From: a virus
IMG/VR virus record: IMGVR_UViG_3300007735_000724
Coordinates: 1-40,692 of that record
Length of the DNA: 40,692 nt
Direction: 5' to 3' (one strand)
Shown here: piece by piece, positions 3,713 to 35,857 of the stretch
Numbering within the stretch: the first letter of the stretch is position 1
Layout of the letters: the number at the start of each line of letters is the position of its first letter
Notes under the pieces: generated by a model
What the model saw: only the letters and a program-made list of their open reading frames with translations
Database searches by the model: none
What the model was told of the DNA's origin: nothing
Program-made: the position numbers and the translations under genes

Positions 3713-5944
3713 TTATACGCTCCGAATTGTTACGAGTAGCATTCCCCCATAGCCGGAGAAACGCTTATCTGAAGGTGTCTTGTTAATAAAATCCATTTCC
3801 TCAATGAGTCCGATATAAGACTCACCTGTTCTGAAGTCTTCAACCTTGATGGTATCGCCGACATTTTCTACAGCTTCTAGTTGTGACATACGGGCATAGG
3901 CAGATCCTTCGTAGCCTACTTCGTTGCCGAACTTATCCATCTCGTGGTCATAGCAGAACAATGGGTATTGGATTAAACGCTGACGTGGGATAGCAGGTAG
4001 CGCTTTAACTTGGTATCCGGTAAACAATGGGCCAAGTGCTGAGTTAGAACTAGAGCGATTCATCGTAAACTTAAAGCCTAGGTATTGTTGAGCACCTACT
4101 GGGTAGCCAACGTTAATCTCAGGGACGGTTTCACCTTGTGCAAATGAACCAATATCAATCTCAGTTCCATCTTCAGCAATAGAACTTATAGCAAATGCGC
4201 CATTGACAGTATCAATACGTGCTTGAACTAATTTAAATATCTTAGATTCAAGAGTGTTGTAGCGGATGTAGCCTGTTTGTAGGTATCCCTCCGCAATTAG
4301 TTCAGTATCAGACTCTATATAGATAGCGCCATCAACACCATCACCAGCATTACAGAATGCTAGACGGTTGGTATCGCCAAGGAAAGCACAGGCAGTTGTG
4401 TAGTGACCAAGAGTATCTGCAGGATTGTATAAATCAAAAGCGTAGGCAAATACTAATTGGCTAATCTCAGTGCCAAGGTTTACGCGAGTAACACCTACTT
4501 GCCCTTCTACACCAGTAGCTGCCCAGATGTATTTATCTCTAAAGGCAAAGTCATAGACTGGTTGGTCTGACTCAAATAGCAATGGGCCATAGGCAATAGT
4601 TCCATCGGTTGAATTAACATCAGCCACACGCATACCTAGGCTAGTTCCGATAGCCATATAGCCAAGGTAGTAGGAGATCTTAAATATAGATTCACCTACT
4701 GGCATTTCAGCAGCAGTAATAGCGCTGGTAAGGGTAGGCATAGCACCAGTTGTTTCAAGGGTAAACTTCTGGATAGTTGATTGAATGTTTGTATAGCCAG
4801 CTAGGTAGATAGCAGCGCCAGATGAGGTAATACTGGTATAGATAAAGTCATTGCTTGGATGGGTATAGACAGCAGTTGGTAGCGCAGTTGCGCTTGTAGC
4901 AAACTCATAGACTTTGTTGTTAGCAGCCAGGACAAGGCGCTCTTTTGTAAATTCCATTACAGCATTAGTAACTAAGATACCTGTTGCGTTAAACATCAAG
5001 GTAGGTGAAACCGTTGAATCATCCGTTAGTAACTTCTTATAGACGTGAATCTTCTTTGCGCCACCTGCAGTCTGGTTAGTTACCCAGTAGGCATAGGTTC
5101 CGTCATCGCAAATAGCAAATACTGGATCATCTGTTCCAGCGTTGTAGTCAATAAAGTGTGTTACTTCTGCATAGGCAGTTCCTGCAGGAGATACAGGAGT
5201 TGATGCTACGTTGCTTGCTGTCTTTGCATAGGTAAAAGTTGTAGCGCTAGGAACGGTGGTAATTCTATATTCGCCATTGAAGGTTGCATCTACACCGCTA
5301 ACGTTAATCTGCATACCAACTGCTAGACCGTGCGCTGCGCTAGTAGTCAGCGTTGCTACGTTTGTAGTTAGCGCCTTGTTGGTAATAGATACAGTAATGC
5401 GTGGGGTTATTTTATCTACATCATACTCATCTAGTAACAAGACTCCGTTATAGGTGTTGTTAGTAGTAGCACCGGTAAAGGTAGGCTTGACCCACTTTAT
5501 AGAACGCATTATTTGATTTGGTCTACCAGTAGAATTGATAGCACCAGTGATGGCGTGGATACCACCATCTACATCTTTAAGCAGAGTTGCTTGGCCCTTA
5601 GTCCAAATATCTAACCCTTTAGATTCGGTATATTGAAAGCGAAGCGACTCATCTTGGATAGGCTCAAAGAACTTGATACCTTGCCCGTAATGAAATGAGC
5701 TTTGAGAGCGTAGCCACCAACCGGTAAGAGTCTGCTCACCTGGTTCACGGCTCTGATCTATCTGTTGCTTGCGGTATTGGGCAGTTACACGGCGGTATGG
5801 AACTTCATCACTAGCACCAACAAAGAATGGCAGACCAGCTAGGGCTACATCGTATGCCTCACCAGTTGCTATATAACTTGTTGAACCTGCAGGATTGGAC
5901 AATGTGTAGGGTATTGCCTCTGTAATGTCATCGCCGTATGCCAC
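3713..5944 (-). CDS. Large tail/minor structural protein
   Basis: 743 residues from GTG 5944, with AAAGGAGA 5 bases upstream. No enzyme motif is seen. Residues about 180-255 contain a Thr/Val-rich module (ITVSITNKALTTNVATLTTS, then GLAVGMQINVSGV and TFTYAK) resembling Ig-like or beta-sandwich decorations in phage structural proteins. The middle has repeated short beta strands suggestive of a propeller or fibre-like body. It is the first gene after a strong terminator and the last structural gene before the lysis genes, so it may be a tail hub, stopper or fibre. Structural role inferred from size, composition and position. Confidence 0.7.
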   Translation of the reverse strand: MAYGDDITEAIPYTLSNPAGSTSYIATGEAYDVALAGLPFFVGASDEVPYRRVTAQYRKQQIDQSREPGEQTLTGWWLRSQSSFHYGQGIKFFEPIQDESLRFQYTESKGLDIWTKGQATLLKDVDGGIHAITGAINSTGRPNQIMRSIKWVKPTFTGATTNNTYNGVLLLDEYDVDKITPRITVSITNKALTTNVATLTTSAAHGLAVGMQINVSGVDATFNGEYRITTVPSATTFTYAKTASNVASTPVSPAGTAYAEVTHFIDYNAGTDDPVFAICDDGTYAYWVTNQTAGGAKKIHVYKKLLTDDSTVSPTLMFNATGILVTNAVMEFTKERLVLAANNKVYEFATSATALPTAVYTHPSNDFIYTSITSSGAAIYLAGYTNIQSTIQKFTLETTGAMPTLTSAITAAEMPVGESIFKISYYLGYMAIGTSLGMRVADVNSTDGTIAYGPLLFESDQPVYDFAFRDKYIWAATGVEGQVGVTRVNLGTEISQLVFAYAFDLYNPADTLGHYTTACAFLGDTNRLAFCNAGDGVDGAIYIESDTELIAEGYLQTGYIRYNTLESKIFKLVQARIDTVNGAFAISSIAEDGTEIDIGSFAQGETVPEINVGYPVGAQQYLGFKFTMNRSSSNSALGPLFTGYQVKALPAIPRQRLIQYPLFCYDHEMDKFGNEVGYEGSAYARMSQLEAVENVGDTIKVEDFRTGESYIGLIEEMDFINKTPSDKRFSGYGGMLLVTIRSV

Positions 5945-6008: not shown

Positions 6009-6242
6009 TTACTTGCTTAGTGCAGCGATTTCTTCTGCGGTTAGTCCGATTGCTGCCAACTTAGCGTGTGCTGCTTCCTTGGCTGCAGCAACTGCTGCTG
6101 CTTCGGCTTCTGCTGCTTTGCGTTGATCTTCAGCAGCTAGGGCTGCTGCCTCTTGTGCCGCAATTTCTTCAGGTGTTAAGTCACGTTCTGTAACAACGCC
6201 TGTTTCGCAATTGACCTCAATTGCTTTTGGTGTATCTGTCAT
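6009..6242 (-). CDS. Ala/Glu-rich small helical protein after the appendage genes
   Basis: 77 residues. The first third reads MTDTPKAIEVNCETGVVTER and the rest is a long Ala/Glu/Lys helix (AAQEAAALAAEDQRKAAEAE and onward) likely to form a coiled coil. Small proteins with a 'VNCETG...ER.LT.EE' opening often lie next to tail-fibre genes and have been viewed as fibre chaperones or minor tail proteins. It is the last gene before the internal terminator. Function inferred only from neighbourhood. Confidence 0.65.
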   Translation of the reverse strand: MTDTPKAIEVNCETGVVTERDLTPEEIAAQEAAALAAEDQRKAAEAEAAAVAAAKEAAHAKLAAIGLTAEEIAALSK

Positions 6243-6263: not shown

Positions 6264-6791
6264 TTAGTTGGTCTTGGATATACCATAAAGATAGAATGAT
6301 GAGCCGATTGCAAATGTTGCAGGTGCAGTAATAACCATTGACGAAATAGCATTTGTATCTCTATATAGTTGCGCCCAAGAATCTATCTCAGAATCTCCAG
6401 CGGTTGCAGAATTATTTTCAGTAACATTAAATTGACCAATAGGTTTATTTTGTGATGCTGTGTATGAAGGTATGTAAATCTCAACTGAACTAAAAGTATT
6501 TGTAGTCATTCCAGCATTATTGCCCGCACAATTAAAAGCAATACTTGCTAAGTTTGATGTCATTGTTGATGAAGCAACAGAACCATCTCCAATTAACCTT
6601 ATAACGGAATATATATTTGTTGATGAACCATTAAACTTGACATTACCCCCACCAATTATGATACTGGTACTTGTACTCCTAATGCTCATCCTCAACACCA
6701 AATCCGTATAAGTAGCAGGAATACTGCTGAAGGTAACTGTTGCTGCGCTGGATGCCAGCGTCTGTGAAGATATTAAAAATCTTGCTCCCAT
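6264..6791 (-). CDS. Appendage protein paralogue A2
   Basis: 175 residues. It shares with its five neighbours a core of 'TFSSIP.TYTDL.L' near the N-terminus and a C-terminal 'LYGI' strand. It pairs best with the gene at 7880-8389: both have the path VTFSSIPxTYTDL, then a V/IPxY segment, then FNVTENN, then a short FYLYGI end. Ser, Thr, Asn and Ala dominate, with no Cys catalytic motif, as in beta-rich virion appendages. It is the last member of the second C-B-A cassette. A receptor-binding or surface-decorating role is plausible but not shown. Confidence 0.72.
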   Translation of the reverse strand: MGARFLISSQTLASSAATVTFSSIPATYTDLVLRMSIRSTSTSIIIGGGNVKFNGSSTNIYSVIRLIGDGSVASSTMTSNLASIAFNCAGNNAGMTTNTFSSVEIYIPSYTASQNKPIGQFNVTENNSATAGDSEIDSWAQLYRDTNAISSMVITAPATFAIGSSFYLYGISKTN

Positions 6792-6801
6792 TTATATCTC
6801 C

Positions 6802-7296
6802 TTAAAGCAATCCGTATAGTGTGGCGGTTGTGCCAATATCCATTGTTGAACCTAAAAACACAATTTGAGTAATTGCGGAAGTTGTCTGCCATAAACCAAC
6901 TGATCTAATTACATTGCCGCTACCATTTAAGTCAGCAGAACCAGTCATTAAAGTTGTTTTGAAGGTTGAACCAGCATAAGAAAAAACATCAAAAGTGAAC
7001 ATTTGTGGTTGAGCATCCGAAACGCTACCGCCAAGAACGATATTCAAACCACTTGCGCTTGTCGCGGAAGATGAAGTTGCAGAAGCACCATCTCCATTTA
7101 TTCTAGTTTGACTATAACCAGTAGTGCTGCCATTAAATCGTATAATGCCGTTGCTGCCTAATCCTGATGCTGCTTTACCAACTATCACCAACCGCAAATC
7201 TGTCCAACTTGCGGCAATAGAACTAAAGGTTATTGAAGCAGCGGCAGAAGCAAGGGTTTGTGTAGCGATTGCAATTTCAGTAGATATATCGGCCAT
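6802..7296 (-). CDS. Appendage protein paralogue B2
   Basis: 164 residues. Closest to the gene at 8393-8893: both have ATQTLASAAA, ITFSSIAASWTDLRLV, RxNGDGASA, FSYAGST(F/Y)KTTL, NGSG and a TTATLYG end. The match spans the whole length, so these are full duplicates rather than domain sharing. The protein is Ser/Thr/Gly-rich with no membrane segment or enzyme motif. It lies 1 base from C2 and 10 bases from A2. Likely a beta-sandwich virion surface protein; the exact location on the particle is unknown. Confidence 0.75.
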   Translation of the reverse strand: MADISTEIAIATQTLASAAASITFSSIAASWTDLRLVIVGKAASGLGSNGIIRFNGSTTGYSQTRINGDGASATSSSATSASGLNIVLGGSVSDAQPQMFTFDVFSYAGSTFKTTLMTGSADLNGSGNVIRSVGLWQTTSAITQIVFLGSTMDIGTTATLYGLL

Positions 7297-7297
7297 A

Positions 7298-7873
7298 TTA
7301 TTTTATCCCATACAGAGCGAAAGTAGTTCCAGTTTGGAAAGTTCTATTTTGAAATAAAGTAATAGATGTGACTGCTGCTGTGCTGCGCCAAGCCATTGAA
7401 TCTAATTCAAGATTAGCGCCAGTGGAGTTATCGTTGTAACCACTAATAGACCTACCAGTTTTGTATTTAGTAGTTGAAGTATAATCAAGAACATCATAAA
7501 TAAAGTTTGCTGGATAAGTTAATCCACCACCAGAAACATTTAGTGCAGCGATTCCAGAAGTTGATAACCTACTACCAGCAGTTACGGTAGTGCCGTTTCC
7601 ATTTAGATAATGAGCATTATATGTTGAAGTAGTATCACCATTAAATTGAATAAACATAGAATCACTTATGTTTAATAAATAATTAGCCCTAATCTGTAAT
7701 GATGAATATGTTTGAGGAATAGAACTGAAAGTAATTGAAGTGCCGCTTGTTGGGGATACTCTTTGAATTAGCCAAGTAGCACTTGGGTCATAGGCAGTAT
7801 TGCCAGCAAGGAATGAGTCGTATTTCTGCAGGTTCTTAAAGCTCGATCCTGTTTTTACGCTAGTGATTGCCAT
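7298..7873 (-). CDS. Appendage protein paralogue C2
   Basis: 191 residues. Class C members carry an N-terminal extension of about 30 residues containing FLAGNTAYDP here and SLLAGNAYYVP in C1, followed by the common SSIPxT core. The shared middle reads DYTSTTKYKTGRSISGY and the end TFALYGIK. The extension may anchor the protein to the particle. It starts the second cassette, directly after A1. Confidence 0.75.
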   Translation of the reverse strand: MAITSVKTGSSFKNLQKYDSFLAGNTAYDPSATWLIQRVSPTSGTSITFSSIPQTYSSLQIRANYLLNISDSMFIQFNGDTTSTYNAHYLNGNGTTVTAGSRLSTSGIAALNVSGGGLTYPANFIYDVLDYTSTTKYKTGRSISGYNDNSTGANLELDSMAWRSTAAVTSITLFQNRTFQTGTTFALYGIK

Positions 7874-7879
7874 AGTGTC

Positions 7880-8389
7880 CTAACTGTTCTTGATGCCGTA
7901 TAAATAGAATGTTGAACCTGAATCCATATTATTACCAAGCGATATTGAAAGGCTTGTAATGATTTCGGCTGTGGTATTTACCGCAGCAACTGCTTGCATT
8001 GCTGCTGCTGTTGCGTTATTTTCAGTTACATTGAAAACTGAATAAGGTCTTGCAACGCTAGTGGCATAATTGGGAACATATAACTCACCATTTGCAAATG
8101 TAGATGCAGTCATTGCTGAAGTTTCCGCACCTGCTGTCTTGATTGCATATTGGCTTGTAAATCTATCTGAAGTAGCCGCAGAACCAGAACCAGCCAAACG
8201 AGTGCTACCAGTTGTAAATAGGCTTCCAGCGTTAGTGTAAAAATCTAATGTGGTTGAAGTTGATGAATTTCGTAAAGAATACTTTAAGCACAAATCGGTA
8301 TAAGTTCCTGGAATTGAACTAAAAGTTACTGTGTTTGATGAACCAGATGCGGTTGCGCTAGCAATCAAAGTAAATGTATTCGCTGCCAT
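7880..8389 (-). CDS. Appendage protein paralogue A1
   Basis: 169 residues. The opening TFTLIASATA differs from A2, but the two share VTFSSIPGTYTDL, LYVPNYATSVARPYSVFNVT (A2: IYIPSYTASQNKP, then FNVTENN) and the STFYLYGIK end. It closes the first C-B-A cassette; C2 starts 7 bases later. Divergence from A2 is greatest between residues 40 and 100, which would be expected of an exposed, selected surface. Confidence 0.73.
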   Translation of the reverse strand: MAANTFTLIASATASGSSNTVTFSSIPGTYTDLCLKYSLRNSSTSTTLDFYTNAGSLFTTGSTRLAGSGSAATSDRFTSQYAIKTAGAETSAMTASTFANGELYVPNYATSVARPYSVFNVTENNATAAAMQAVAAVNTTAEIITSLSISLGNNMDSGSTFYLYGIKNS

Positions 8390-8392
8390 AGT

Positions 8393-8893
8393 CTATGCCT
8401 TCGCTATTCCGTAGAGTGTGGCGGTTGTGCCAGCCTTTAAATTACTTGCAGCACCAAAAACATAAATTGAAGTAATTGCGGCGGTTGAACGCCAAAGGTG
8501 GACCATTTGCTCAACTCTGCCAGATCCGTTTTGGTCTGATGATTGTGTGCCTAAAGTGGTTTTGTAAGTAGAACCAGCATAAGAAAATATGTCCAAAACT
8601 CCCATACAAGGAATGGTATCTGAACAAGAAATTATGAGTGAACCGATAGTAAGAGAAGTTGATCTGACAGATGAAGCACTTGCACCATCTCCGTTTAATC
8701 TAGTTCCCGAATAATTTGTTGTAGTATCGCCGTTAAATTGAAAGCGAACATTGTCTGAAGCGGTTGCAACTGTCCCAGTTAAAACTAATCTAAGGTCTGT
8801 CCAACTTGCAGCAATAGAACTAAAGGTTATTCCAGCAGCGGCAGATGCAAGGGTTTGTGTTGCTATCGGTTCGTAAGTTGCGCCAGCAGCCAT
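8393..8893 (-). CDS. Appendage protein paralogue B1
   Basis: 166 residues, nearly co-linear with B2. Diagnostic strings are ATQTLASAAAGITFSSIAAS, FQFNGDTTTNYSGTRLNGDG, DIFSYAGSTYKTTL and TTATLYGIAKA. The variable segment (about 75-95) contains two cysteines (ISCSDTIPCMG) absent from B2. Transcribed between C1 and A1 with 2-3 base gaps, so it is certainly co-expressed with them. Confidence 0.75.
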   Translation of the reverse strand: MAAGATYEPIATQTLASAAAGITFSSIAASWTDLRLVLTGTVATASDNVRFQFNGDTTTNYSGTRLNGDGASASSVRSTSLTIGSLIISCSDTIPCMGVLDIFSYAGSTYKTTLGTQSSDQNGSGRVEQMVHLWRSTAAITSIYVFGAASNLKAGTTATLYGIAKA

Positions 8894-8895
8894 TG

Positions 8896-9474
8896 TTACC
8901 CCTTAATTCCGTATAGTGCAAAAGTTGATGCGGTTGTCAGAGTTCCAGAAGCCGTTAAAGTGATAGAAGTAATCGCTGCGGTGTTCATCCATAATCCAGA
9001 TGTTAAATAAAGATTGCCTGAACCATTTAAATCCCATCCCATAAGACTTCTGGCAGTTTTATATTTTGTCGTAGAAGCATAATCAACAATATCTATTATC
9101 GAAGAACCATAAATGTTAGCGGTTCCAGTTGCGAAAGCCATATTGAACATATTTGTTGTTGTAGCCGTTCCAGATGCCGCGACTGTTGTGCCATCTCCGT
9201 AGAGCCTATGTCGCGCATAATTGCTACCAGTATCAGCATTGAAGATCATATTTATTTGAGAACCTAAAGCATCATTGGCTAAAGTTCTAATTTGTAAATG
9301 TTTGAAAGTGCCGGGAATTGAACTAAAAGTTACTGACGCACTTGAACCTGTTCCATTAGCGGTTGCAATAGATTCAAAGGAAGGTGGAACATAATAGGCA
9401 TTTCCCGCAAGCAAAGACCTACTCTTGGGAAAACCCTGCAATATAGATGATTTTGTTATGCGGGAAACAGCCAT
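8896..9474 (-). CDS. Appendage protein paralogue C1
   Basis: 192 residues, first gene of the six-member run. An N-terminal class-C extension (SLLAGNAYYVPPSFESIATA) precedes the core VTFSSIPGTFKHLQIRT; the middle has DYASTTKYKTARSLMGWDLN and the end TFALYGIKG. It lies 3 bases after the 109-residue structural gene. The C extension is a candidate attachment module because only the first member of each triplet has it. Confidence 0.75.
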   Translation of the reverse strand: MAVSRITKSSILQGFPKSRSLLAGNAYYVPPSFESIATANGTGSSASVTFSSIPGTFKHLQIRTLANDALGSQINMIFNADTGSNYARHRLYGDGTTVAASGTATTTNMFNMAFATGTANIYGSSIIDIVDYASTTKYKTARSLMGWDLNGSGNLYLTSGLWMNTAAITSITLTASGTLTTASTFALYGIKG

Positions 9475-9477
9475 TAG

Positions 9478-9807
9478 TTATGCAATCTCGCTTCCGAAAG
9501 CGGTGAATGAAATGTTAGCGGTAGATCCGTATACAGTAATAACATCGGTAGCACCAAGGGTAATACCAAGAGTTAGAGCTGTTGAGTCTGACGCGCCTAC
9601 TGTAATGTCATAAGCGACATACATAGCGTTAGTCTGTGCTGCGCCAGCAGGACGAACTGAGATACGGAAGGTAGCTGCAGTAGATGTTAGGTTAGCAATT
9701 ACGATTGTTGATACGACTGCCTGTGTAGAAGCCGGAACTGTGTATAGAGTTGTTGCGGTTGTTGCTGCTGGGTTCGATTGTCCCAACACTTTATAGGTTG
9801 TTGCCAT
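9478..9807 (-). CDS. Small beta-rich virion protein
   Basis: 109 residues, beginning MATTYKVLGQSNPAATTATT and continuing with a run of alternating hydrophobic/Thr strands (VVSTIVIANLT, TFRISVRPAGA, SFTAFGSEIA). This is the layout of a single beta-sandwich domain common next to fibre genes. No catalytic or membrane feature. It is co-transcribed upstream of the six-paralogue cluster and is probably a component of the same appendage. Family resemblance is from memory of similar phage proteins and is not verified. Confidence 0.68.
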   Translation of the reverse strand: MATTYKVLGQSNPAATTATTLYTVPASTQAVVSTIVIANLTSTAATFRISVRPAGAAQTNAMYVAYDITVGASDSTALTLGITLGATDVITVYGSTANISFTAFGSEIA

Positions 9808-9833: not shown

Positions 9834-10373
9834 TTAAGCGCCCATAAGCATAAGCACGGTTGGTGTTGAAGCATCTCCTGCTGCGGTAGCAGCCCATTTG
9901 ACACCAAGTGTCTGTGTTGAATCAGCAGTAAGAACATAAGTATTAGTTCCAACGGCTAAGTTATCTACTACACCACTAGCACTTGCTACCAGAATATCGC
10001 CTTTAGCCGTAACAATAGATTCTGGAACTGCTGCATCTGCGGTAGCAACGCCTGTTGTATAGAATGTTAAATCACTTGAGGTAAGCACGTGCTTTACCGA
10101 AGCACCTGCTGTGTGTGAGATACCAGTGGTTCCGGCTTGAGCACGAACTACGGTAAGTGTGTCTGATGAAATTGCGGTAACAAATACAATTTCCTCATTG
10201 ATGGTATCAACATCAAGAGCTACTGTGAACTGATCTACGTTACCTCCGGCAAGAGTTACACCACCCATAAGAGCAGAACCAGTGCCACTAGCTACCGTAA
10301 TATTCGTAGCGGTGCTGTTGATACCAGCCGCTAACGTCGTTGCAACCGAAGTTGAACTGTATTTTCTAGTCAT
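9834..10373 (-). CDS. Tail-fibre/appendage-like structural protein
   Basis: 179 residues. The N-terminal two-thirds is a Thr/Val-rich beta domain ([36 protein letters not shown]). The C-terminal segment [20 protein letters not shown] followed by YVLTADS is a motif frequent in fibre tips of environmental phages. It precedes the paralogue cluster and likely belongs to the adsorption apparatus. Confidence 0.72.
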
Positions 10374-10383
10374 TTATCCTGCC

Positions 10384-11280
10384 TTACTTGGTGTAGTGTA
10401 GACGAATCGGGAATTTGTCTGAAAGTTTAAGTGACTCATCTTGTAGTCGTTGCTGGTAAAGAGCGTAGACATAACGAGATGAACTGGTAGAAGCTGTGCT
10501 TGGTATCTTGCTATCGTTTAGGTCAGCCTCAGCAGAGGTAAGGTTGATACGGCCTGAGTCAACATAGGTCAATAAACGATATGCGGCACCTAGCGTGATT
10601 ACATCACGGCAAGATTCAGGTAGACCTGATACATCTACGAAGTCATCTGAAGCGTTAGTTAAAGTATTTGGTGAAGCGGCATACCAGACTTGAATAGTTC
10701 TACCAGGTTGAACATTCTCATAAATGTTAATTGTCTTTTGAGTATTAAAGGTAGCAACGTTAGCCATCAGATCTTGACGCCAGCGCTTAATTGGTAGCCA
10801 CTCACGGCTAGAACCTGTTGTCTGCCAAGACATATAGAGAACATTCTGCACATCATCTGGTAGCGGATATGTTGTCTGGCTTGCATTGAAAGTAAAGGTA
10901 GTTGAATAGACAGCCCATAACTTCGGATAGACAGAGGTAATGGTGTCGTTAATTGATTGCTTGATTACATTGCGTGGGAAAGACGGAGTCAAAGTTACTT
11001 GTGCATATTGAGCGTGAGGCGCAGCAGATGTTCCGTTGTAGCCACGACCAAAACCAGGAGCCGCATTCATTGTGTTGTTTGCCTTGTTAAAGTTATCTAC
11101 CCAGATAAGTTCGTCATCAATCTCGACGATACCTTTTGCTAGGTTTGAAGATGAACCAATTTGGAATGATAAGTCAGTTGTGCCAATGGCAGCATTGAGA
11201 TACGAGATACGGTCTTGGCGCAGGGTATAACCAGCGAGCGAGGACCGAACCTCGGAGATCATATCATTTAGTGTTGCCAT
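10384..11280 (-). CDS. Structural adaptor-like protein
   Basis: 298 residues with AGGAGAA ahead of the ATG. It opens with a helical segment (MATLNDMISEVRSSLAGYTL), a pattern typical of head-tail adaptors and tail-completion proteins. A beta-rich region (IVEIDDELIWVDN, FTFNASQTTYPLPDD) follows, and the C-terminus is a helical bundle. It overlaps the glycosyltransferase gene by 17 bases. In short-tailed phages a protein of this size between capsid and fibre genes often forms the tail tube or adaptor ring; that assignment is inference. Confidence 0.65.
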   Translation of the reverse strand: MATLNDMISEVRSSLAGYTLRQDRISYLNAAIGTTDLSFQIGSSSNLAKGIVEIDDELIWVDNFNKANNTMNAAPGFGRGYNGTSAAPHAQYAQVTLTPSFPRNVIKQSINDTITSVYPKLWAVYSTTFTFNASQTTYPLPDDVQNVLYMSWQTTGSSREWLPIKRWRQDLMANVATFNTQKTINIYENVQPGRTIQVWYAASPNTLTNASDDFVDVSGLPESCRDVITLGAAYRLLTYVDSGRINLTSAEADLNDSKIPSTASTSSSRYVYALYQQRLQDESLKLSDKFPIRLHYTK

Positions 11281-12319
11281 TCAGTTTCTCCTTATAGAAC
11301 TGTAAGTTCTTAACCAATCGTTCATCGTTGGGTGTTATCTCTACTGCTTGCTTGCCATACTTGTAAGCATCTTTCCATTTGCCTAACTGCCAAGCTGATA
11401 TTGCTATCAAGTCGTGAGGCATATGACTCCACGCCCAATACTCGGACATAAAGTTAAGTGACTTGTTCTTTATCTCTAAAGCCTTCTTTGCTACTACGTA
11501 GCATTCATCCCACATCTGTTTGTGGTAGTAATAGTTAGCCAGAGCAAGGACTGCTTCTCTGCTACCAAATTCTTCTGTTGAACGGATTAGATATTCCTCA
11601 GCCATATCAGGCTCGCATTTACTTAAGATGCGATAGGCATAACCACGTTCTTCAGGAAACTTACTTATCTCAAGATATGCTTTAAGCATCTTTGCTGCTT
11701 CTTCATATCTCTGCTTGTAGTAATACTCTCTACCAAGGTAGTAAAGGTTTCTACTGTTTGGGTCTTCCTCTACCGCCATTTCTAACATTGGTAAATATTG
11801 ACCACGAGATTTAGAATTATCAGGCTTATGGTGCATCTCTAAACCAATAAAGCCTCTGATTTCTTCGGTCATATAAGGATCTATCACTTCGTGGATTGGA
11901 TACTTCCACCGATAGTTCTTACGCTTGTGAATCTTAAAGCCATTAAATTCTTCTGATGGTGTTCCATCTTCATTCCAAGCGTAGATGAATCTATAACTTG
12001 GTCTGGTAATTCCTTGTTTAAAACCTTTTTCTAGTTCTTCTCGCCAACCTGGTAGAAGTAACTCATCCATATCCATACTGATACAGAAGTCAGCATCCAT
12101 TGGGACTGCTGCTAAGGACGCATTTCTCGCATCATCAAACCTAAATGGAGATACCCCAATTTTAACAACAGTGATGCCCAACTCGGTAGCTCGCTTGACC
12201 GTATCATCAGTGGAGCCGGTATCTGCGATAATGTGGTAATCGGCTTCTTTGCTTGATTCATACCAGCGTTCAACGTGTTGTTCTTCGTTTAAAGCGATTG
12301 TATAGATAGCAACTTTCAT
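11264..12319 (-). CDS. GT2-type glycosyltransferase with C-terminal TPR-like helices
   Basis: 351 residues. The GT-A nucleotide-sugar fold is evident: VAIYTIALNEEQHVERWYES at the N-terminus, IADTGSTDDTV (31-41), and a DMDE metal-binding DxD motif at 83-86. Residues about 180-350 are helical repeats (YLGREYYYKQRYEEAAKMLK, LANYYYHKQMWDECYVVAKK) like TPRs. The combination is known in SunS-like and tail-associated glycosyltransferases, where TPRs help bind protein substrate. It lies between the collagen-like fibre and the adaptor gene, so a virion protein is the likely acceptor. Enzyme class firm; acceptor inferred. Confidence 0.88.
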   Translation of the reverse strand: MKVAIYTIALNEEQHVERWYESSKEADYHIIADTGSTDDTVKRATELGITVVKIGVSPFRFDDARNASLAAVPMDADFCISMDMDELLLPGWREELEKGFKQGITRPSYRFIYAWNEDGTPSEEFNGFKIHKRKNYRWKYPIHEVIDPYMTEEIRGFIGLEMHHKPDNSKSRGQYLPMLEMAVEEDPNSRNLYYLGREYYYKQRYEEAAKMLKAYLEISKFPEERGYAYRILSKCEPDMAEEYLIRSTEEFGSREAVLALANYYYHKQMWDECYVVAKKALEIKNKSLNFMSEYWAWSHMPHDLIAISAWQLGKWKDAYKYGKQAVEITPNDERLVKNLQFYKEKLNGNTK

Positions 12320-12331
12320 AGTGCAAGGTTA

Positions 12332-13661
<1,330 letters not shown>

Positions 13662-18170: not shown

Positions 18171-19331
18171 TTACCCCATAAATCCAAAGTCTTTTAAGAC
18201 TTTTTGAACGGAATTGGAAACATCTTCTCTGGCGTTATTTGTATATTGCCAACGAGGATCTTGTTTTAGTGTTTTCTGAAAATCATAAATAGACATTTCT
18301 TTATCAGGTCCGATAGCCATACGAAGCGTTGGGTCATTAACGTTTATAGCATTTGGGTTAATTTCTAATATAGAAGCCATAGTCTGTTTATATGGAGAGT
18401 AAATTGTATCTAAGTCAATGCCTTGGTCAATTAAATTCTTAACAGAATCAGGCAAACCTAATTTTGCTGCGTTACGGATTGTCTGCTTAAATGTTTCAAT
18501 AGGTTCACCAGCAGCAATACGAGATGCCCATTGTCCAGCATCTGCAAATTGGTTAATGTCAAGACCATTAGCCATAGCGGTTTGAGATAGAATATCTTTA
18601 TAACTCAACTCTTTGGAAAGCTTAACTTGTTCTTTTTCTGCTTTTACTTTTTTATACTCAGGAGTTTTTTTGACAATATCAGTTAAGAATTGATTTTTGT
18701 CAAGGCCCCCATATGTAACACCATTAACATATTTAGAAGGATTTTTCTTTTGAGCATTATTTAATTTAACTGTAAGACTTTTAATTTCTTTATCGGTTGC
18801 ATCTCGTCCAAGAATATTCTGAAATACAGTATTAATATCAGATTTAGCTTGTGTAGGACTTGATACATAAGATTGCGGTAAAGAAGTTTTAGTGTTTGCT
18901 GCAGCATTTTTTGCCGCTGCATTAAAGTAATCTTCTAATGTTCCAGTTCTAGCTATTATGTCAGAAGAGCCCATAATATTTGTAGCTAGTTTGCTAACAT
19001 ATCCACCAACATAACTTGGATCAAGGGTTTTTCTGCCTGTTAATTTGGCTACAGCATTTTTAACTCGCGCATATGCTTTTGCATCAGTTCCAGCTAAAGT
19101 TGCTATATAAGAGCCAATTTGAATTGGTGGTAAGGCAAGAGGTTTTCCATCTTTATCAACTAAGCCAAAACCTACATCTACTGTATAGACAGAACTACCA
19201 GTATTTCCTGTGGTTCCTGCTCCCATATCAAAAGTAGGTCTAGGAGCTTGATTATCTCCAGGCTTGTTTGGGTTGCCCTTGCCATCAGCAGTCCAAACCC
19301 AGGTGCCGTTCTTATCTTTACTCCAAGACAT
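18171..19331 (-). CDS. Probable internal virion protein, 386 residues
   Basis: Helical and Lys/Asn-rich. The N-terminus (MSWSKDKNGTWVWTADGKGN) resembles short Trp-rich loops; the middle has DINTVFQNILGRDATDKEIK, which recalls the DUF4214-like 'GR.AT..E' helical motif seen in phage internal proteins. It starts on the stop of the 1741-residue gene (TAATG), ensuring coupled synthesis. A role in genome ejection with its neighbours is likely; no enzyme motif is seen. Confidence 0.68.
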   Translation of the reverse strand: MSWSKDKNGTWVWTADGKGNPNKPGDNQAPRPTFDMGAGTTGNTGSSVYTVDVGFGLVDKDGKPLALPPIQIGSYIATLAGTDAKAYARVKNAVAKLTGRKTLDPSYVGGYVSKLATNIMGSSDIIARTGTLEDYFNAAAKNAAANTKTSLPQSYVSSPTQAKSDINTVFQNILGRDATDKEIKSLTVKLNNAQKKNPSKYVNGVTYGGLDKNQFLTDIVKKTPEYKKVKAEKEQVKLSKELSYKDILSQTAMANGLDINQFADAGQWASRIAAGEPIETFKQTIRNAAKLGLPDSVKNLIDQGIDLDTIYSPYKQTMASILEINPNAINVNDPTLRMAIGPDKEMSIYDFQKTLKQDPRWQYTNNAREDVSNSVQKVLKDFGFMG

Positions 19332-22300
19332 TACTTATTCACCTCAATTATTTCATAGTTATCGTTTTCAAGATAGCGTGTATATAAATCAGAAAATCCA
19401 GTATCATACTGTTTTAAATCAATAATGTATTGATCCCATTTATCTTTTAAGTCAGCATTTGCTGGATTTGTCAATCCTGAAATTCCAAGATATTTTTTAC
19501 GATTAGCAAGTTCATTGGCAACATAATCCCTGTTAAGGACATAATCTTTAACGGCTAACATTGTTGGAGTATTACCATATTCTTTCATCCATTGTTCATT
19601 ATTTAAAGTCTTAAGAAGACCTTTTACATAACGCTTGGTTTTAGTATAATCGCCAATGGAATTATCGTATGCCTCTGCCCAAGAAGGAAGGTATGTTTTA
19701 ATTGAATTAACGGCTGCTTCCCATTTAGCAGTTAAGCCCATTTGCTGTGCAGCTTGTGAGTTAATGCTTTTAATACCATACTTAGTAAGCATAGCATCTT
19801 TTTGTTGAGAAAATTTTTCGTAATAATTCCAACCAAGGCTTTCTTCACGATCAGTTATAATATCTTCGGTAGCACGAGATTCAGTATATTTAATTTCCCC
19901 ACCAGGGCGAACATTTTTGTTGCGGAAATAATTGGCCGCTGCTTCTGAATATTTATCGGAGTTATTGCCGTAGTTAGCAATAAAACCAACAAGTCCTGGC
20001 ACATTAAGTTTATCCATCTCACCAAGGAGTGGTTTAAACTTCTTCTCATTTACAACTGCCCCAATTGTTGGGTTAAGATTAGTTTTATTTTTACTTGTAG
20101 GTGCTGTAATAAGATAGCCTAAATCACCATATTTATTAAGAATATAGTCATCAACTTTTGTTTTACCAACTTTAGGATCTTGCAAAGCGGCTCTGTAATC
20201 ATCCATAATTGGTTGCCACTCAGGTCTAAACGTAAATGTAAATGGCAAACTTAAATTAGCGCCAATACGAATCTTGAATAATGTATTTGCAAGGTTTATT
20301 GCATCTTGGAAATTTGGTTGAGGACCAACGCTTCCATTTGATTCCCATTCATATCGAAGACTTTTCATAGCACTTGCTACGGATCGTGCATATGTTGCAT
20401 CATCTAATCCAGATTGAAGTGCTGCATACTTTTGACCAGCAGCTGGCAATAATAATTTCCAAGGATTAGCTGGAGCTTTTCCAAACGGAATTATACTATT
20501 CATAATTGCATTTGATGTCTGCTCACCAAAGAAATCAGTCAAAAATGTTTTAACATTTTCAACTCTATCAGGTCTGCTATTTGCAAGCATAGATACTGGG
20601 ATAGTCACAGGGACGCCAAACGATGGCGCTAGTGGATTATCCCCAGTAAGGAAAACGTTAAGGCTATTTTTAGGTATAGAAATTTGATACCCTTTAGGTA
20701 TCCCAAATCTTCCTTGAACGCCTTCCGGAATAGTAATAATAATAAATTGATTTTCAGAAGGTGGCGCTCCTGGTGGAACTTCTTTACCTTCATTATCAAT
20801 AACAGTTGCTACTCGGTTTGGAAGATTCCATATTTGCTGAGCGCGAGCGATACGTGAAGGATCTTCAAGCAAGAACTTTCCATAAACCTTAACAGCGTTA
20901 TACTGAGCATTAAAGAATGGAACTAGGAAACGCATAAAATTAGATAAACCAGTATTATTGGCAACACGGTATAAAACGTTTTTAAGCGTTTTTTGTGATT
21001 CAGCGTGAGCTGTGCGTTGCATTTGAATAATTAAATCTGGGTCTTGTATATTTTTACCTAGACCTTCAGCAAGGTTAATTTCTTGTTGAAGATTCTTTTT
21101 ATACAAGTTATTATAAAATGGCCAAGCAACAAGATTGTTTTCAGGTGTTGAACCAATTACTTTAAATATACCGGAAATAGCATCGTTAATGGTTGTCTTG
21201 ATAACACCTTTGTTATAACGAAGAGTGTCTTCAACTAAAGAACGTCCAGCAATAGGAATTAAATTTGGTTGACCTCGCATAAGCAAGTCAAATTGTTCTG
21301 GTGTAATTTCTTCTCTTGCAAGAAGAGAACGAACTTGCTGGTCTGGCAATAACTTAAAAATACGTGAACGCGCTTCAGATACGTGTAAAGGAATATCAAT
21401 TTTACTTACGTCAGCATTAATTTCTTTTAAGTAAAAATTTCCCTTTGAACTTTGAAGCCATTTAACAATCTTTGCATCTGGCGCACCTTCAAGGATTTGC
21501 ATAGCAAGTTGATCGTTACGCAAAATACGATTAGCAAAAACAGACATTTCATTAAAGTATTGTGGGTCACCAGGATTAACTTTAATTCTGTTTTCGCTAA
21601 GGTTTAAAGCAGACGTTAAGGTCTTTGATCCTTTTGCTGCATCAAAACTTAAGTAAGCCTGACCTTCGGTCATCCAGTTAAGAGATCCTTCGCTGGATGT
21701 TTCAGCTCTTACCAAGGAACCGTTTGGCCCAGCAAATGCTCCATCGGCAATTACTTTTTTACCATTAGGAGAAATAAATACTTCTTCTGTTTCTCCTGCT
21801 TTAATAATCTTTAATTCAGAGCGACGCTGAGCAAGAAGTTGAGATTGTTGAACTTTTTCAAGAATTTGGTTATCAATCTTATTAGCAAAATCTTGATAGA
21901 AGCGAATGCGTAGCATCTGTTCTTCGCCAAGAAGATCAGCAATTTCTTCAAATCCCTGACCTCGTGAAGTTTCGTAAGATGTAATTACTTTAATATTTGG
22001 ATACTCAATAGGACCTTTAGCGCGAATATTGATTAGACCAGCCGACTCAAGTTCATCCGCAAGAACACCTGCAGGCAAACCACGACGTGCTTCAATTTCA
22101 GGAGTGGCACCTTTAGGTAAACGTTTTCCACTACCTGGAATTTTGTAAAATACTTTTCCACTTAGATAGTCAGCGTATACGAGGGTTGTTCCCTTTGGAA
22201 GTGTTGGCACAACTTCTTCTCTTACATATTTTGAAAATGCTTTATTTTGCAATGTTTCAAATTTAGACTTGTCATTTGCAAACAAAAGACCCTTTTGTTT

Positions 22301-24556
22301 CTTTCGCTTTTCCATTAATTCAAAGTAAGCCTTAGTATCTGCTTCTTTAAGTAGTGGTTTAGACTTTGAAGTAATTGCAAGTTCAACAGATTCTGGTAAT
22401 ACTTGCTTTCCAAATGTTCCGGCAGCATTAGCGTAATAAGATTTAGGCGTTAGTTCATTAAGGATTGACTCACGAACATTAATTACATCTTGGCGTTGTT
22501 GAATTAATTTGCCAATTTGCGTATTAAGTTGAGATGGCCTTGCTGTTAAAAGTGTTTCAGTTGCAAAATTTATTGCTTGCTTTTTACGAGTTCCTAAATT
22601 TTGTTTAAGTGTCTTAAATACTTCATCTGTTTTTGCAATAGAACCCAACGCTAAAGCAGCACGTAGTTGTCCATCAATAGTGTTACGGATTGGATAACCC
22701 ATACGTGTAAGAACAGATGCTTTAAATATTGAGTTTGCAAAATCCATTACATCTTCAAGTTCTTTGCCAGCAAGTCTTGCTGTTAATCCAGCTTTGGTTA
22801 CTACATCTCCAGATGGAACAAGTCTTTTATACACTTTAAGAAAATTATCAAAATCTTTAAAGTCCATCATCGGAATTACGTTAGGCATTTCTGATTTCCA
22901 AAATGGGGATGTAACTAATTCACCATTATCGGCAACCCAAAAACCTTTTGTGCCAATAGCGTTCATAATTCCGCGACGAACTGAACCAAAAGCTTTATAC
23001 CACATAGTTGCTTCTTCAATAGTTAAACCATTTTCAAGAGCGACAACGTTTGCCATCTCTTGCTCTATGTTTTCTACTGCGTCCCAACGTTCAGTGGAGT
23101 TTCTAGCAAGCGCATACTCTGAATATAGTTCTGTTTTTACTGCAAGATATTCTGGATTACGCAATGCAGGCACTGAGTTAAGCGCATATTTAATTTCATT
23201 TGCAGACTCAGCCATAGGTCCACCATCAACGCGGACAATTCCGCGAGGAAGTTTATTAAATGCTGCTTGAATTACTGCGACTGGCCTTGAAAAAGGAGTT
23301 TTTTGAAATGTTTCTGTATAAAAAGAAAAATCGTGACGCAAATCGGCTGCTCTAGCACGAGCTTTTTCAACAGCAACACCAATATTCTTATTAAATAAGT
23401 TAACATCAGCAGCAGATGTATATTCATTAATAACGCGATAGTCACCTAAACGCTCATCCATTGCGCGAGCAAGGTTCACATCACGTAGTTTTAGATCATC
23501 AAGAACTTTGCTTAATCTATCATATTCTTGAATAGTTGGTTGCAAGTTATCAATATTAACACCAGCACCCCATTCAATATTTGCATATTTTTTAGCAACA
23601 GGATCTAGTAAATCTTGTGAACGTTGAATTTCATCTGCAATAGATGCGCGAGATGCTGCAATTTTTGCAAGAGAAGCTGAGTCACCGGCTGCAGCAGCAA
23701 CAAAATTGGCGGCATCTTCATATGTATTTGCTTCACCTATAAGAGCTGTCATCAAACGTGGGTTATTACTCTTAGTAATCAGTGGGTGGGTAGAGACTTC
23801 TGCTAGATTCTTTCCAACAAGAGATTGAACTGCAGTGCCAATAGGAGTTTCTTTTCCAACTTGACCACCTGATTCAACCCAAGCACCGTGTTGAGTTAAG
23901 TCATTACGTAAGCGAACAATGTCATCGGCTGATTCAATAGGTTTAATAAATAATTTTTTACGTGCTAATCCAGCGCCTTTACCAAAAAGAACTAAAGGAT
24001 CTACATACCAATTTAAAAGTCCATCAACTCCACCTGAAGCTGCTTTACCAAAAATATTTTTTTCAAATGTTTCTTTGCGATCTGTAGGGTTTGCTATATC
24101 AAATTTTGAATTAAAAAGTTCAACATATTTACCAAGCGCAGCTTGTGCAGGACTAACATTTTCAGCAAGTTTCCAGTTGGCAGGAATGTCTGGAATTTGC
24201 CCTTTTTCTAATTCTGATATAGATAATGCGGCTGCTGATAAAGGTTGTGAAACTTTTGGATATAAAAATTCATAAGCTTTATTAGCTTCTTCCATACCAA
24301 GATTAAAAAGTGTATCGGCTTTAACTGTTTCAGCAGGTTTAACCATAGCATTAACTATAGTTTTACCAGCTTTTTGTCCAGCTGCTTTAATAGGAGCTGC
24401 GGCAGTTTTTGAAATTTGAGTAGTATCAATAGTAGGAGCAATTTTACCTGCAGCTGATGCAGCAAAACCACTAGCTACATTTTCTGTAACCGCAGTTAAA
24501 CCTTCACCTATTTTAGAGGCGATGGCATTTTTAATGGTATCCCAATAATTAGCCAA
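19331..24556 (-). CDS. Giant internal/ejection-type virion protein, 1741 residues
   Basis: Largest gene of the phage, from TTG 24556 (GAGAGG 8 bases upstream). It is almost entirely helical, without the repetitive hydrophobic heptads and transmembrane spans of a tape-measure. The N-terminal 100 residues are Ala-rich; a segment near 1180-1230 reads RFLVPFFNAQYNAVKVYGKF and is the most conserved-looking; the last 250 residues are Asn/Lys/Tyr-rich. Position between portal and scaffold, with two smaller helical partners, matches ejectosome cores of podoviruses. No lysozyme, transglycosylase or polymerase motif was found. Role inferred. Confidence 0.7.
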   Translation of the reverse strand: MANYWDTIKNAIASKIGEGLTAVTENVASGFAASAAGKIAPTIDTTQISKTAAAPIKAAGQKAGKTIVNAMVKPAETVKADTLFNLGMEEANKAYEFLYPKVSQPLSAAALSISELEKGQIPDIPANWKLAENVSPAQAALGKYVELFNSKFDIANPTDRKETFEKNIFGKAASGGVDGLLNWYVDPLVLFGKGAGLARKKLFIKPIESADDIVRLRNDLTQHGAWVESGGQVGKETPIGTAVQSLVGKNLAEVSTHPLITKSNNPRLMTALIGEANTYEDAANFVAAAAGDSASLAKIAASRASIADEIQRSQDLLDPVAKKYANIEWGAGVNIDNLQPTIQEYDRLSKVLDDLKLRDVNLARAMDERLGDYRVINEYTSAADVNLFNKNIGVAVEKARARAADLRHDFSFYTETFQKTPFSRPVAVIQAAFNKLPRGIVRVDGGPMAESANEIKYALNSVPALRNPEYLAVKTELYSEYALARNSTERWDAVENIEQEMANVVALENGLTIEEATMWYKAFGSVRRGIMNAIGTKGFWVADNGELVTSPFWKSEMPNVIPMMDFKDFDNFLKVYKRLVPSGDVVTKAGLTARLAGKELEDVMDFANSIFKASVLTRMGYPIRNTIDGQLRAALALGSIAKTDEVFKTLKQNLGTRKKQAINFATETLLTARPSQLNTQIGKLIQQRQDVINVRESILNELTPKSYYANAAGTFGKQVLPESVELAITSKSKPLLKEADTKAYFELMEKRKKQKGLLFANDKSKFETLQNKAFSKYVREEVVPTLPKGTTLVYADYLSGKVFYKIPGSGKRLPKGATPEIEARRGLPAGVLADELESAGLINIRAKGPIEYPNIKVITSYETSRGQGFEEIADLLGEEQMLRIRFYQDFANKIDNQILEKVQQSQLLAQRRSELKIIKAGETEEVFISPNGKKVIADGAFAGPNGSLVRAETSSEGSLNWMTEGQAYLSFDAAKGSKTLTSALNLSENRIKVNPGDPQYFNEMSVFANRILRNDQLAMQILEGAPDAKIVKWLQSSKGNFYLKEINADVSKIDIPLHVSEARSRIFKLLPDQQVRSLLAREEITPEQFDLLMRGQPNLIPIAGRSLVEDTLRYNKGVIKTTINDAISGIFKVIGSTPENNLVAWPFYNNLYKKNLQQEINLAEGLGKNIQDPDLIIQMQRTAHAESQKTLKNVLYRVANNTGLSNFMRFLVPFFNAQYNAVKVYGKFLLEDPSRIARAQQIWNLPNRVATVIDNEGKEVPPGAPPSENQFIIITIPEGVQGRFGIPKGYQISIPKNSLNVFLTGDNPLAPSFGVPVTIPVSMLANSRPDRVENVKTFLTDFFGEQTSNAIMNSIIPFGKAPANPWKLLLPAAGQKYAALQSGLDDATYARSVASAMKSLRYEWESNGSVGPQPNFQDAINLANTLFKIRIGANLSLPFTFTFRPEWQPIMDDYRAALQDPKVGKTKVDDYILNKYGDLGYLITAPTSKNKTNLNPTIGAVVNEKKFKPLLGEMDKLNVPGLVGFIANYGNNSDKYSEAAANYFRNKNVRPGGEIKYTESRATEDIITDREESLGWNYYEKFSQQKDAMLTKYGIKSINSQAAQQMGLTAKWEAAVNSIKTYLPSWAEAYDNSIGDYTKTKRYVKGLLKTLNNEQWMKEYGNTPTMLAVKDYVLNRDYVANELANRKKYLGISGLTNPANADLKDKWDQYIIDLKQYDTGFSDLYTRYLENDNYEIIEVNK

Positions 24557-34848: not shown

Positions 34849-35228
34849 AGCTGGACTGCCTCCTCAATTGAAAGATAACCTACTGACTTAGCTACCTTTT
34901 GCTGGTTCTCGAACTCACTTGTTGCTGGCATAATATGACTAACCCATTCAGGTTCAGGTATATCCATCAGGTCAAACGAATAAACTCCTAGCGGAGTCGA
35001 GTTAATATAAAAGGGGATGAGGTCGCGCTCTGCGCTCTGCGTTATGAGCTTGCGATACTTTAGTTCTTCAATGAGCAGGGTAGGGTAGTGAGTATGACGG
35101 CACTTGAGTTCAATGTAATGACCTGCTTGCTCGCTGATACAATCAAATGAGTCATAGATACCAGGACTTTTAACAAGGTCCGGATATAAGTTCTGCTTTA
35201 GATAGTCAAATAACTCTGCCTCTATCAT
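34845..35228 (-). CDS. PD-(D/E)XK nuclease-like protein, 127 residues
   Basis: A short restriction-endonuclease-like core: YDSFDC (Asp26/Asp29), then HYIELKCRHTHYPTLLIEEL in which Glu40-Leu-Lys42 is the (D/E)XK motif. Two further Glu follow on the same helix. This matches small phage nucleases. It sits between the sigma-like and FmdB-like genes with overlaps at both ends. Substrate unknown. Confidence 0.65.
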   Translation of the reverse strand: MIEAELFDYLKQNLYPDLVKSPGIYDSFDCISEQAGHYIELKCRHTHYPTLLIEELKYRKLITQSAERDLIPFYINSTPLGVYSFDLMDIPEPEWVSHIMPATSEFENQQKVAKSVGYLSIEEAVQL

Positions 35229-35857
35229 CTGAAAGGACTATCCCCACCTAGTAAGTTCTGTAACTTACGAAGTGAATTAGAACAGCGACGATCAGCAGTA
35301 GATAAGGCGCAACCATAAACCTCTGCTATCTGTTGCAGGGTGAGCGCTTCGTGATGACGAAGCAGTAGTAAATCTTTATCGGCTTGTTCTAACTTCAGGT
35401 AAGCCTTCTTAATATCTATTAACACGGCAAGCAGGTTGCCACCCTCAGAAGGAGATGATGAGCCGCGAGGTTGCCCATCTTTAATCATATCTTGTGCCTG
35501 TTCTAGCACTGTGCCATCTACTATCGAAGCAATTACATAGGGCAGGAGCTGGCCCAAGGTAGCAGTTTCATAATAAGTTTCATCTGTTATCGAATAGCCA
35601 GACTTATCTGCCTTCTGCCTGCGAGCGTAGCGCTCTGCAACTCTACGCATTTGCCACGCAATACGCTGAAGGTTATGTTTATTCTGTTCAGGATCAGGCT
35701 CTGCTAACTGCTCGTTGATATAGTAAGCACGACTAACTGCCCATATGTAACACTCTTGGGCAAGGTCTGCCTTCTCTATGAAGTTCTTGTAACGGCGATA
35801 GATACTGTTAGTAACCGAAGGAACTAAGTCGTATACTGCAGGGTCTAGTTCAGTCAC
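35225..35857 (-). CDS. Sigma-70-family-like transcription factor
   Basis: 210 residues. Region 2-like: VTNSIYRRYKNFIEKADLAQ then ECYIWAVSRA, comparable to the helices of ECF sigma factors that bind core polymerase and the -10 element. A long helical linker follows. Region 4-like: LEQADKDLLLLRHHEALTLQ, then QIAEVYGCALSTADRRCSNS, a HTH that would bind a -35. It overlaps both neighbours by 4-8 bases. It probably switches host RNA polymerase to phage promoters, consistent with the lack of clear -35 boxes in this genome. Family call from pattern. Confidence 0.75.
   Translation of the reverse strand: MTELDPAVYDLVPSVTNSIYRRYKNFIEKADLAQECYIWAVSRAYYINEQLAEPDPEQNKHNLQRIAWQMRRVAERYARRQKADKSGYSITDETYYETATLGQLLPYVIASIVDGTVLEQAQDMIKDGQPRGSSSPSEGGNLLAVLIDIKKAYLKLEQADKDLLLLRHHEALTLQQIAEVYGCALSTADRRCSNSLRKLQNLLGGDSPFR

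Follow-up and report, generated by a model that had tools for sequence, protein, structure and literature searches.

Why does one virus carry six related genes in a row, with three kinds of protein each occurring twice in the same order? The question arises at positions 6,264 to 9,474 of a 40,692-nucleotide (nt) stretch of viral DNA (the window; IMG/VR record IMGVR_UViG_3300007735_000724, positions 1 to 40,692). Read from its letters alone, this locus had been interpreted as a three-gene appendage cassette, C-B-A, duplicated en bloc (the original prediction). We followed up on this claim, and the reading that we favor is that C, B and A are probably obligate, non-interchangeable subunits of one anchored receptor-binding head by which a freshwater-type phage takes hold of its host, most likely a 1:1:1 heterotrimer, that are swapped class for class. 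The open reading frames (ORFs) concerned follow one another on the minus strand as C1-B1-A1-C2-B2-A2, separated by a few bases:

8896-9474, minus strand: C1, 192 amino acids (aa), slot-1 anchor peptide and beta-sandwich head domain; class C clade
8393-8893, minus strand: B1, 166 aa, head subunit without anchor; class B clade
7880-8389, minus strand: gene A1, 169 aa, head subunit without anchor; class A clade
7298-7873, minus strand: C2, 191 aa, slot-2 anchor peptide and head domain; class C clade, head not sister of that of C1
6802-7296, minus strand: B2, 164 aa, head subunit; class B clade, best match the B of a relative (L172) at 63%, own B1 at 59%
6264-6791, minus strand: gene A2, 175 aa, head subunit; class A clade

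The arrangement itself was confirmed. Corresponding genes are spaced equally, at about 1.6 kb from start to start (C 1601 nt, B 1597 nt, A 1598 nt), and reciprocal best matches fall within class, with identities of 59% for B1/B2, 45% for C1/C2 and 39.5% for A1/A2 and of 29-39% across classes. All 15 paralogue pairs score 9 to 45 standard deviations over shuffled-sequence controls, and descent of the three classes from one ancestor is supported. Each of the six proteins ends in the LYG(I/L) strand, and L-Y-G is invariant in an alignment of 112 C proteins. Variation is concentrated in the domain bodies, as had been expected. At the DNA level, similarity is confined to short blocks:

8796-8866, minus strand: conserved 5' joint of B1, 71 nt, 91.5% identical to B2 at 7199-7269
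7199-7269, minus strand: conserved 5' joint of B2, counterpart of the B1 joint
9306-9335, minus strand: 30-nt block of C1, 93% identical to gene A1 at 8302-8331

To place the locus among its relatives, IMG/VR was scanned with the six window proteins (six scans) and with the anchor peptides of C1 and C2 (two scans), which gave about 280 loci. Arrays were counted among complete, non-redundant IMG/VR arrays only (n = 155). CBA accounts for 137 of these and intact CBACBA for 12, and the remaining six were initially irregular: L074 is a CBACBA interrupted by frameshifts, L238 a CBA with its C gene broken by an ambiguous base and a frameshift, L242 a CBACB followed by an HNH gene at the contig end, and L148, L219 and L062 are each CBA with one weak, unclassifiable (divergent) relative elsewhere. 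No gain or loss of one single class member was seen among the 155 complete arrays. In a tree of 512 non-redundant sequences from 159 loci, for which class labels were set from gene position alone, A, B and C formed perfect clades (170, 171 and 171 sequences; the three supports are 0.974, 0.957 and 0.988). C, B and A are an obligate set in fixed class order and each class is monophyletic; copies cluster by class and not by position, with 0 exceptions. Because the clades are perfect across all 512 sequences, the step from one gene to three is old and common to the whole family, and this part of the stepwise build envisaged by the original prediction stands.

The further step, from three genes to six by simple en-bloc duplication, was not supported: a single C-B-A is the norm, and the C and A heads of the window have diverged like those of unrelated phages. 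A tandem duplication in the phage's own lineage, followed by fast divergence and leaving two heads that are redundant or split two receptors between them, would account for the shared order and spacing. It would also suit the unusually close B1/B2 pair, which at 59% ranks 1 and 2 of 193. On average, the two copies in one phage are as alike as copies from different phages (mean identity C 0.425 vs 0.419; B 0.436 vs 0.430; A 0.417 vs 0.426). In the window, C1/C2 (43%) and A1/A2 (39%) likewise show no more identity than copies taken from unrelated phages, B being the exception. In the class trees, copies from the same phage are mostly not sisters. The window's C2 pairs with the first C of L233 (support 0.95) and its B2 groups with the B of L172 and others, so that non-sister partners are already seen for both classes, and its A2 is sister to the A of L077 (support 0.90). 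Topology tests, which are limited by the short sequences and by recombination near gene starts, pointed the same way for two classes. The approximately unbiased (AU) test rejected C1+C2 and B1+B2 as sisters (p 0.005 and 0.003), although the Shimodaira-Hasegawa (SH) test leaves B at p 0.054, and A1+A2 was not rejected (AU p 0.25). When sister pairs were enforced in all double loci together, every class was rejected (AU p 0.0012, 0.0004 and 0.0023). With unlike tips filling the two positions in many relatives (see below), we consider a recent duplication of the whole cassette rather improbable. In favor of duplication, the two anchor peptides resemble each other (cross-match E about 1e-5), which makes an early doubling of the slot gene likely.

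What, then, distinguishes the two copies? We found an N-terminal anchor peptide in class C only; B and A are without one. Its two types are as follows:

9385-9474, minus strand: anchor peptide type A1, MAVSRITKSSILQGFPKSRSLLAGNAYYVP, N-terminus of C1; 33-column alignment; also found on glycine-rich and propeller tips in relatives
7784-7873, minus strand: anchor peptide type A2, MAITSVKTGSSFKNLQKYDSFLAGNTAYDP, N-terminus of C2; from the alignment of A2 anchors; always in the second slot

Their consensus sequences are MAxSRxKTSSILQGFPKSRSLLAGNA (A1, as in C1) and MAITSIKTGSSFTNLxKYNDFLAGN (A2, as in C2). In all contigs with two anchored genes, many of them outside the set from which the anchor models were built, A1 is the best-scoring model for the first gene and A2 for the second. 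The scan made with the A1 peptide also retrieved relatives in which it is fused to other domains, and the occupants of the two slots vary accordingly. Both slots hold heads in the window, L073, L233, L234, L249, L254 and others. A glycine-rich tip precedes a head in L241, L243, L245, L246, L250, L251, L253, L255 and L217, and follows one in L240, L248 and L252. Glycine-rich tips fill both slots in L263, kelch-like repeat proteins fill both in L166, and a propeller is combined with a head in L244. Pfam supported the Gly_rich_2 and beta-propeller assignments for the slot tips checked, and the kelch-like label was given from repeats alone. Since either slot holds C-B-A or one anchored single gene, the C+B+A trio behaves as one exchangeable tip. 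As in phages of the K1-5/G7C type, two genes or gene sets for receptor-binding proteins (RBPs) lie side by side, the conserved N-terminal peptides differ between them, and the distal parts are unrelated. The two-slot layout is found in a subset of the family; the C proteins of many single-cassette phages have other short N-termini. A better reading than duplication is that the phage has two conserved docking slots, that both carry a C-B-A head in the window, and that phages trade heads with one another.

The head domains themselves do not divide into an ancient lineage for slot 1 and another for slot 2, since the AU test strongly rejects a grouping of heads by slot (p about 1e-55 or less). As a separate observation, the anchored kelch-like repeat proteins of L166 (3036-4001 and 5083-6048) have no Pfam match, and between them lie genes for a 262-aa and a 91-aa protein, which may act as a chaperone for assembly and as a small partner.

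Exchange also takes place gene by gene. Among 192 complete cassettes, de-duplicated at 90% mean identity beforehand, in all 35 pairs that have one gene in common at 80% identity or more, a second gene falls to 60% or less or lies near that value; 10 of the 35 stem from one shared B allele. In DNA comparisons, the bodies of one or two genes are replaced while the flanks are well conserved: A in L143/L146, B and part of C in L101/L146, and B and A in both L224/L172 and L251/L250. Breakpoints fall at gene junctions, conservation persisting over the final ~30 nt of the upstream gene and the opening ~60-100 nt of the one that follows. One such junction in the window is the 71-nt block common to B1 and B2: codons are the same for 18 of its 23 identical residues, as against 34 of 69 elsewhere in the gene. 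HNH_3 genes were found at C|B or B|A junctions in L003, L006 (two), L035, L087, L135 (two), L153, L217, L233 (two), L234, L242 and L261 (ten checked with Pfam, the rest read by eye). All sit in gaps between head genes and none was seen inside one. The endonucleases could promote allele exchange.

We next considered how three such proteins might be put together. N-terminal extensions, fn3 where checked with Pfam, occur on 10 of 192 C proteins and on none of 194 B and 192 A proteins. Glycine-rich C-terminal extensions, Gly_rich_2 where checked, occur on seven A and three B proteins and on no C. This division suggests that C is proximal and B and A are distal. Moreover, the same distal glycine-rich extension can sit on both B and A in one phage (L047, L100 and L060), which suggests that these two sit at the same level. 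The original prediction had named structure modelling of the six proteins and of a C+B+A complex as a check, and this was carried through in part. AlphaFold2 modelled C1 (112 alignment rows) as an all-beta domain of 11 strands with a mean predicted local distance difference test (pLDDT) of 86.8; the anchor, modelled at low confidence, contains a short helix. Because C, B and A share one frame in six loci, their stops can be read through there. A read-through C-B-A model of one of these (L077), built as a single chain with artificial linkers of 2-4 residues, reached a predicted template modelling score (pTM) of 0.77 over 537 residues at mean pLDDT 71.5, by which measures it was judged. Its alignment was limited to the six in-frame triples, as MAFFT had piled B and A onto the first domain in a mixed set. 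A pTM of this size exceeds what three independently tumbling domains would generally give, and the model supports a compact three-domain assembly, short of proving a heterotrimer.

Phage tail fibres and their tips are generally homo-oligomers, and the chief alternative is that each of C, B and A forms a homotrimer of its own, the three being stacked on one fibre or standing side by side as an obligate three-storey tip. Such a tip would require an obligate set just as well, a proximal C with distal B and A suits a stack, and beta-sandwich fibre tips can be homotrimers, as in Pam3 gp24 (PMC9608196). Several observations fit it less well. B and A have no anchor of their own and both can carry the same distal extension; the read-through chain folds at the pTM given above; and the alternatives found in the slots, a propeller, normally one chain, and a glycine-rich domain, fit one anchor copy per tip. 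The glycine-rich gp38 of phage S16 is likewise one chain on a gp37 trimer (PMC6851490). On balance we regard separate homotrimers as unlikely, though less so than a recent duplication.

In the heterotrimer that we prefer, three similar beta-sandwich domains would pack as C:B:A (1:1:1) with pseudo-threefold symmetry. C would be the proximal subunit, its N-terminal peptide plugging the head into the virion at slot 1 or slot 2 as specified by the A1 or A2 anchor; the window has C-B-A in both slots. B and A would supply the distal binding surface, with loops of three different subunits facing the receptor. Diversification could then follow two routes, replacement of the whole tip in a slot by another kind, or replacement of a single C, B or A gene by a same-class allele, with recombination at the conserved junctions, where an HNH endonuclease gene sometimes resides. 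Selection for new receptors would act through both, and class-for-class swapping is the rule to be expected if each subunit holds a fixed, non-equivalent place in a complex. Quantised copy number, the restriction of the anchor to C and the read-through model speak indirectly for the 1:1:1 stoichiometry. We consider it about an even bet that host recognition is combinatorial in this sense, with independently swapped C x B x A alleles in an obligate heterotrimer, times two slots.

Several points weigh against this picture. The loci were found with window-derived queries, so that phages with one or two such genes could be under-sampled. The six-row single-chain model cannot separate a heterotrimer from homotrimers, and trimerisation cannot be argued by analogy, as the head has no match among solved structures at E<=0.001. 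Synonymous-site conservation at junctions is not raised over the whole family, so there is no general DNA-level signal of recombination; Mantel correlations among the three genes (0.36-0.51) indicate a partly shared history; and, the contigs being mostly metagenomic, some apparent mosaics could be assembly chimeras.

The surroundings of the genes speak to their function. The module reads 298-aa protein, tail-fibre-like protein, p109, slot 1 (A1), slot 2 (A2), p77 and p743:

10384-11280, minus strand: conserved virion protein (298 aa), phrog_7578; upstream border of the module
9834-10373, minus strand: tail-fibre-like protein (179 aa), phrog_38058 tail fibre; homologues of 155-719 aa at the same place in relatives
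9478-9807, minus strand: p109, phrog_1276 and tail-fibre phrog_693; directly upstream of slot 1, kept in two-slot relatives
6009-6242, minus strand: p77, small Ala/Glu-rich protein downstream of slot 2; position kept in most relatives
3713-5944, minus strand: p743, phrog_11667; downstream border of the module

The products of 9834-10373, 9478-9807 and 10384-11280 are candidate slot carriers or docking partners, the first being a possible carrier. This context supports the appendage or receptor-binding role proposed earlier. The trio might instead decorate the head or tail without a receptor role, for example by binding particles or polysaccharides at the capsid surface. Curated Pfam and PHROG hidden Markov models gave no match to the six window proteins, which leaves room for such a function, and a sequence search of the PDB with head proteins returned only chance-level antibody chains and similar. 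Against it stand the position of the trio after tail-fibre genes, its exchange with glycine-rich proteins, rapid allele replacement, and the tail-fibre, FN3 or glycine-rich annotations of its structural neighbours; we consider it very unlikely. These neighbours come from Foldseek searches of viral predictions, which matched many uncultured phage proteins, including FN3, side-tail-fibre and glycine-rich ones. Against the PDB, the C1 model had no match at E<=0.001 and only faint galectin-8-like and lambda-gpJ-like resemblances. The best galectin-8 matches reached a template modelling (TM) score of about 0.3-0.44, and no significant match to a solved TNF/C1q-like or galectin-like domain was obtained.

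The same fold is predicted in BFVD for two proteins of uncultured Caudovirales phages, A0A6J5NFQ6 and A0A6J5Q8S9 (TM 0.80-0.81; 54% and 37% identity); these are isolated entries without function, one named Fibronectin type III, in which the three-class system is not described. By design, the arrangement recalls C1q-type globular heads, in which three similar paralogous A, B and C chains, one each per head, offer three different binding faces; the likeness is one of design only, with no sequence or fold match shown. Closer parallels come from phages with two RBPs per virion, such as K1-5, SP6, G7C and Klebsiella KP32 (PMC6872550). There, too, each RBP docks by its own short conserved N-terminal peptide and distal parts are freely exchanged, but a slot takes one gene product, whereas here it can take the products of three genes, of which just one bears the anchor. 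The S16 gp38 adhesin, a polyglycine-sandwich tip on the gp37 fibre (PMC6851490), is likewise small and detachable, and the alternative slot tips and the A/B extensions match its Gly_rich_2 family (PF21722). Unlike this single chain, the head domains are three paralogues, and none of the six window proteins matches PF21722, which extensions and alternative tips of relatives do match. The freshwater phage tail fibre Pam3 gp24, with a TNF-like and a glycine-rich domain (PMC9608196), shares the order of beta-sandwich then glycine-rich tip with A and B of L047, L100 and L129, but is a homotrimer from one gene with a chaperone, gp25; a match between it and the head domain was found neither by sequence nor by PDB fold.

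Phages generally shuffle RBP parts (PMC10684548), and slot peptides and glycine-rich tips are likewise known. What would be new is the putative heteromeric three-gene tip: a full-text search of open-licence literature returned no case of a heterotrimeric fibre, tailspike or adhesin in a phage, and we found no earlier description of like-for-like swapping of tip parts to recognise new hosts. If true, such an obligate head of three paralogues, each swapping alleles independently, would give phages a new means of exploring host-receptor space, with a logic comparable to that of multi-chain immune receptors. The anchor peptides also offer a handle for finding interchangeable tips in uncultured phages.

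A few further observations concern the host and the rest of the window. The only bacterial-genome match of the B query was the L238 contig, from a Polynucleobacter sp. UBA2650 metagenome-assembled genome. This phage contig, binned with Polynucleobacter, is a weak hint at a freshwater betaproteobacterial host, too weak for naming one. Between a collagen-like fibre gene (12332-13330) and the gene for the 298-aa virion protein lies a Beta-1,4-glycosyltransferase-like gene (11264-12319, phrog_13126), the product of which may modify the fibre. Amid virion genes, 19331-24556 encodes a 1741-aa protein with a TTG start (phrog_10618, a family of unknown function). A PAPS reductase-like gene (641-1480) adjoins an HslV-family peptidase-like gene (1477-1821), and a phage-encoded sigma-factor-like protein is found in the replication region (35225-35857).

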